A DNA stretch of 64,000 nucleotides from Promethearchaeati archaeon. Lineage in GTDB: Archaea; Asgardarchaeota; Heimdallarchaeia; Heimdallarchaeales; Heimdallarchaeaceae. The position numbers and the translations under genes were made by a program. The number at the start of each line of letters is the position of its first letter. The stretch's first letter is position 1. Below, piece by piece: positions 46,416-46,506 of the stretch. Location: contig JABLTJ010000008.1 in NCBI GenBank assembly GCA_013166775.1, positions 52,564 through 116,563 on the forward strand, written 5' to 3'. Below the pieces are notes generated by a model. It had not been told where the DNA came from and did no database searches. It saw only the letters and a program-made list of their open reading frames with translations.

Positions 46416-46506
46416 GCTCCGATAGTATAACGGTTAGTATTGGGGATTGTGGATCTTAATGAGCAAAATTCCCTAGGTGACGGTTCGATTCCGTCTCGGG
46501 GCACCA
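46416..46506 (+). tRNA. tRNA-His(GTG) with 16-nt intron at 37/38 (46453-46468), encoded CCA
   Basis: Acceptor gctccga/tcggggc, T-arm gacgg-ttcgatt-ccgtc, anticodon stem gggga/tccct, anticodon gtg 46449-46451; BHB: ttgt/gcaa 4-bp helix flanked by 3-nt bulges gga and aat; discriminator A 46503. Confidence 0.88.

Follow-up and report, generated by a model that had tools for sequence, protein, structure and literature searches.

How histidine tRNA is recognized in an archaeon whose tRNA-His gene encodes neither G-1 nor C73 is the question raised by a 64,000-nucleotide stretch of Asgard DNA, the whole of which is referred to here as the window. According to reviews, all Bacteria and Archaea share C73, and most archaea carry G-1 in the gene itself (PMC6471195, PMC9976931). 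The literature treats G-1 as an almost universal identity element for histidine, with one alphaproteobacterial group as the exception to C73 (PMC6471195, PMC3937112) and with Acanthamoeba and Trypanosoma brucei named as further exceptions (PMC4284800). The genome comparisons presented here make it likely that the sole tRNA-His found in the source genome is functional and forms part of a histidine identity system that does without G-1 and has a co-evolved histidyl-tRNA synthetase (HisRS); this system would have arisen at least twice in Asgard archaea. Whole Asgard families, one of them cultivated, depart from the near-universal G-1/C73 rule, and such repeated archaeal loss offers natural replicates for the HisRS residues that free the enzyme from G-1. 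In addition, the departure bears on how eukaryotes acquired A73 and Thg1, given the kinship of these archaea with the ancestor of eukaryotes. We found no earlier report of a G-1-less Asgard tRNA-His in the searchable literature, and none joining Asgard, Thg1 and tRNA in the searched library; subscription papers lay outside the search, leaving priority uncertain.

The tRNA-His gene of the window

A tRNA-His(GTG) gene with a probable intron and an encoded CCA occupies positions 46416..46506 of the + strand, on which all features described below lie. ARAGORN and an Rfam search (RF00005, 50.6 bits, E 7e-8) agree in assigning 46416-46503 to the tRNA. The preliminary description of this locus had claimed A73, A at position -1 and an encoded CCA, all of which were confirmed by direct reading and by these two programs. 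Position -1 (46415) is A by direct reading, and hence no G-1 is encoded. The 5' part reads GCTCCGA-TA-GTAT-AACGGTTA-GTAT-T-GGGGA-TTGTGG and forms the 5' exon, G1 to G37 (46416..46452; direct reading and alignment with intron-less congeners), with the anticodon GTG at 46449..46451 (direct reading and ARAGORN). The inserted ATCTTAATGAGCAAAA follows. This extra anticodon-loop sequence, which the preliminary description passes over, is a probable 16-nt archaeal intron at 37/38 (46453..46468), its splice site being placed by comparison to within one nucleotide; we read it in this way because relatives of the same genus have either 12-16 extra bases at the same place or, as in the intron-less G025, none. 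The remainder, T-TCCCT-AGGT-GACGG-TTCGATT-CCGTC-TCGGGGC-A-CCA, comprises the 3' exon (46469..46503), whose last base is the discriminator A73 (46503; direct reading, Rfam and covariation), and the CCA (46504..46506; direct reading and ARAGORN), which is encoded in 45 of the 47 tRNAs of this genome. The acceptor stem, GCTCCGA / TCGGGGC by direct reading, contains a single G-U, at 3-70. Neighboring genes encode a DUF2122 protein, a cytidylyltransferase-like protein and Ras-like GTPases.

The window lies on contig C76 of a Heimdallarchaeia-like Asgard MAG (G000) of 3.85 Mb in 115 contigs, estimated to be 88.7% complete. Rfam returned 48 tRNA matches over the cut-off in this genome; typing with ARAGORN left 47 distinct tRNAs, a single one being tRNA-His. 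A second tRNA-His, including the canonical G-1:C73 form that the preliminary description had named as one objection to its claim, was sought with both tools and not found in this 88.7% complete assembly. One further tRNA of the genome was typed differently by program and by eye: the gene at C35:47453-47542 (L029 1498-1590) is tRNA-SeC(TCA) according to ARAGORN and reads as tRNA-Arg(TCT) interrupted by an intron at 37/38.

The A73 assignment is not an alignment error, because the paired positions covary and the structure collapses when the register is moved by one column. In an alignment of 14 diverse Asgard tRNA-His genes, 294 of 294 pair cells are standard, both sides have changed in 15 of the 21 pairs, covariation is found in five of the seven acceptor pairs, and a one-column shift reduces pairing to only 49-58%. 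A corrected fold yielding C73, the other objection raised at the outset, is thus ruled out. Identity as tRNA-Gln or another tRNA with a misread anticodon was likewise rejected; tRNA-His identity stands since the intron-less congeners carry an ordinary TTGTGGC loop. The eukaryotic character initially attributed to the tRNA, on the other hand, is a surface likeness: G-1:C73 genes of family f19 (L097) share the CGTATAGTGGTTAGTAT D-arm, which, being common to C73 Asgards, is no proof of eukaryotic kinship.

Distribution of A73 and G-1 among Asgard genomes

A set of 231 Asgard genomes, in whole or in subsets, was searched with two covariance models (R1 and R2) and with patterns, and the matches were read singly; the models were built because a fixed GGTT D-loop pattern missed most Asgard tRNA-His genes. 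An A73 tRNA-His with a readable -1 position was found in 44 genomes of eight families (f1, 22; f3, 2; f4, 5; f7, 7; f11, 1; f16, 1, namely G084; f18, 5; f20, 1), and a C73 tRNA-His with a readable -1 in 23 genes of seven families (f5, 2; f6, 2; f10, 1; f16, 1, namely G083; f17, 1; f19, 7; f28, 9), these counts being by-eye readings of tool output in which same-family genomes are not independent. Family f1, that of the window, is taken as Heimdallarchaeaceae, since G009 bears two published primer sites of Ca. Heimdallarchaeum endolithica PR6 (PMC8813620) where they should lie, at the ends of its single 3,326,783-bp contig. Encoded G-1 goes with C73: the -1 base is T, A or C in 43 of the 44 A73 genes, and G-1 is encoded in 23 of the 23 C73 genes. 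It is this contrast across genomes that gives weight to the missing G-1, since G at -1 is rare in the source genome (T22 A16 C7 G2 across its 47 tRNAs) and its absence from one gene alone therefore means little. A73 without G-1 is neither a folding error nor a one-off in Asgard archaea. The canonical archaeal G-1:C73, of which the window gene encodes neither base, characterizes f5, f6, f10, f17, f19 and f28. Among the genomes with an A73 gene lacking G-1 are G009, identified as Ca. Heimdallarchaeum endolithica, and G090, identified as the cultivated Ca. Lokiarchaeum ossiferum, in cultures of which a direct test is feasible.

Family f16 is split between two genera, one with G-1:C73 (G083, L271) and the other with A73 and no G-1 (G084, L270). 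As their HisRSs also fall in different clades, this contrast suggests that HisRS was replaced together with the tRNA change. For f11, A73 without G-1 was expected before its tRNA-His had been read, because the HisRS of the f11 genome G067 belongs to clade I (see below) and is of the DET type; the tRNA-His of G071 (L283 1501-1595) indeed has A73, T at -1 and the loop CTGTGGA. ARAGORN types this gene as tRNA-Gln, owing to a D-loop insertion (an apparent intron), and several f11 tRNAs have similar D-loop or other non-canonical insertions.

The sole A73 gene read with G at -1, opposite A73, is that of G024 (L096, 1501-1586), which may reflect chance or a local re-gain. Bacterial-looking tRNA-His genes with G-1:C73 were seen in two Asgard MAGs, G040 (L071) and G095 (L075), and are likely contamination. 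The tRNA-His was not recovered from f2 (G006), G033, G010 and G018.

Thg1 and histidyl-tRNA synthetase

Two ways of coping with the missing G-1 had been put forward, a Thg1-type enzyme and a HisRS that ignores G-1. The first lost ground in a search with the Pfam model PF04446 (E<=0.01), which gave a match in the Methanosarcina control: no match was found in 65 genomes of the window's class (families f1-f7, closed genomes among them and the source genome included) or in any A73 genome. Strong matches are nevertheless present in ten other Asgard genomes of families f9, f10, f19, f21, f23, f26 and f27 (loci L148-L157, in G002, G158, G005, G004, G003, G105, G182, G166, G180 and G172, respectively). 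These Thg1-like proteins fit the tRNA-repair or templated class, because the bearing genomes whose tRNA-His was read have C73 (G004 and G158 and, via a 3' pattern, G002, G172 and G182). As no G-1-adding enzyme was found, HisRS probably reads tRNA-His differently.

The HisRS of the source genome (L063:3624-5141:-, 506 aa) is complete, with PF13393 and an anticodon-binding domain. Its closest solved structure is the Thermoplasma enzyme 1wu7 (E 5e-72), followed by the trypanosomatid enzymes 3hri (E 9e-54) and 3hrk (E 3e-52); the human (2e-34) and E. coli enzymes lie behind these, at about 1e-34 to 1e-32, and a profile search also ranks the Thermoplasma and trypanosomatid HisRSs on top. This order, too, speaks against more than a surface likeness to eukaryotes, the human cytosolic enzyme being more distant among solved structures than those of Thermoplasma and trypanosomatids. 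A shared or transferred origin of the trypanosomatid HisRS and Asgard clade I is possible on the basis of these similarities.

In a tree of 49 Asgard HisRSs, the enzymes of A73 genomes sit in two well separated places. Clade I comprises f1, f3, f4, f7 and f11, has the motif 2 RDETxQ[RK]GR, and has as its sister f17/f19, with the motif YERPQRGR and G-1:C73 tRNA. Clade II comprises f18, f20 and G084, with G033; in most of its enzymes A, T or K stands in place of Gln118, and the neighbors of the clade include the C73 genome G083. A third A73 case in the tree, G095, is probably contamination, because the assembly also carries a bacterial-type tRNA-His. The tree requires three changes of tRNA state. 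A test of all A73 HisRSs as one clade rejected the single clade with a likelihood gap so large as to be suspect, and the supported branches of the tree are better evidence. From this topology, Asgard archaea apparently acquired the G-1-less A73 state on two or more occasions, in two HisRS clades.

In E. coli HisRS, R123 and Q118 recognize G-1 and C73, and in the Thermus complex the G-1 phosphate is contacted by R7 and R122 (PMC10100707). The Thermus R7 site is R or K in 14 of 14 aligned C73 HisRSs. It is non-basic in A73 lineages outside f1 and G095, being S, A, Q, P, N, H or T in f3, f4, f7, f18, f20 and G084 and G in f11; in trypanosomatid HisRS it is Q. It is K or R in f1, and K in the enzyme of the source genome. 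The R123 site is basic throughout the alignment and is also K in the source genome's enzyme, whose motif 2, DETPQRGRVKE, retains Q118 and bears as its sole marks R116>T and Y122>V, the changes seen in clade I. Q118 was rejected as a lone predictor of N73: it is kept across clade I and in G084, which have A73, and is absent from the f5 and f6 HisRSs (K, G or A; L273, L274 and L275) despite G-1:C73. The f5 and f6 enzymes are in this respect an exception to the reported link between this Gln and C73. Only three contrasts in the covariation are independent. Two point the same way and the third shows no difference, so that a sign test cannot reach significance. The proposal of a HisRS that ignores G-1 is therefore sustained in part: covariation argues for it well in several families, and falls short of proof, being weaker for the window itself because f1 retains the basic phosphate-contacting R7 site and the motif common to clade I is the chief indication.

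Proposed histidylation without G-1, its alternatives and known counterparts

In the system that we favor, RNase P would cut pre-tRNA-His at +1, leaving no G-1, and the tRNA, once spliced at 37/38, would serve with A73 and without G-1. The co-evolved HisRS would not need the G-1:C73 pair and would probably recognize the GUG anticodon together with A73 and further features of the acceptor stem. The gene sequence, its conservation, the negative Thg1 search and the differences in the G-1/N73 contact region of HisRS are observations; the mature 5' end at +1, the specificity of HisRS and the tRNA bases that would replace G-1 we infer.

It is unlikely that, instead, RNase P leaves the encoded -1 base (A, U or C) in place and HisRS reads any extra 5' nucleotide or phosphate. 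The HisRS of A. pernix accepts A-1 and C-1 (PMC9976931), that of N. equitans takes A-1 at about 2-fold loss (PMC10100707), T at -1 in many g1 genes could pair with A73, and the f1 HisRSs retain K at the phosphate site. However, the -1 base is unconserved (A, T, C and once G), much like the genome background given above, A-1 and C-1 could not pair with A73, and the phosphate-contact residue has been lost in f3, f4, f7, f11, f18, f20 and G084.

Addition of G-1 after transcription by a non-PF04446 enzyme or a highly diverged Thg1, which would produce the eukaryotic G-1:A73 arrangement, appears distinctly improbable. A73 without encoded G-1 is the usual state of eukaryotic genes, to whose products Thg1 adds G-1 opposite A73 (PMC6471195), and the D-arm is similar (as it is in C73 Asgards). 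Against this, PF04446 drew no match in the class at a threshold at which it works in other Asgards and Methanosarcina, archaeal Thg1-like proteins add templated bases and are poor on A73 tRNAs (PMC6471195), HisRS contact residues are altered in several families, and the source genome's HisRS is without an AMT-type motif 2. The best reading is that the G-1-less Asgard state is not eukaryote-type Thg1 biology. We give only a slim chance to the related idea that the eukaryotic A73 gene without G-1 is a relic of a stage without G-1 in the Asgard lineage that founded eukaryotes, with Thg1 recruited later and restoring G-1.

That a canonical second tRNA-His went unassembled or was missed, the window copy being unused, is hardly credible: the MAG is incomplete and ARAGORN can miss tRNAs with unusual introns, but no canonical copy occurs in this genome or the congeners read, none turned up in the single-contig genomes G009 and G090, which have the A73 gene, and the window gene is structurally conserved by the 14-gene covariation.

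The favored G-1-independent system most likely shares its working principle with alphaproteobacteria and T. brucei, with archaea as new hosts and on at least two HisRS backgrounds. Alphaproteobacteria (the RRCH clade, Caulobacter) likewise have A73, no encoded G-1, no Thg1 and a changed motif 2 (PMC3937112, PMC9976931, PMC4284800). Their HisRS, attributed to the transfer of a eukaryotic-type gene, has Gly for the motif 2 Gln, whereas clade I keeps this Gln and has R116>T; clade II, with Q118>A/T/K, is nearer. The Asgard case further differs in the domain of life and in its separate HisRS clades. In T. brucei and Acanthamoeba, tRNA-His without G-1 is charged by HisRS, and T. brucei is without Thg1/TLP (PMC4284800), for which the PF04446 search of the Asgard A73 genomes also gave no match. 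The trypanosomatid enzyme, one of the nearest solved structures to clade I, similarly has no R7 equivalent; unlike the Asgard DETPQRGRVKE, motif 2 in T. brucei and Acanthamoeba is EAITRGRRRE, and the host is eukaryotic. The HisRS of N. equitans is still strongly G-1-dependent, with an about 88-fold loss without G-1 (PMC10100707), in contrast to what is proposed here. It nevertheless keeps the motif 2 Gln while its charging is almost as good with A73 as with C73 (PMC10100707), and clade I may do likewise.
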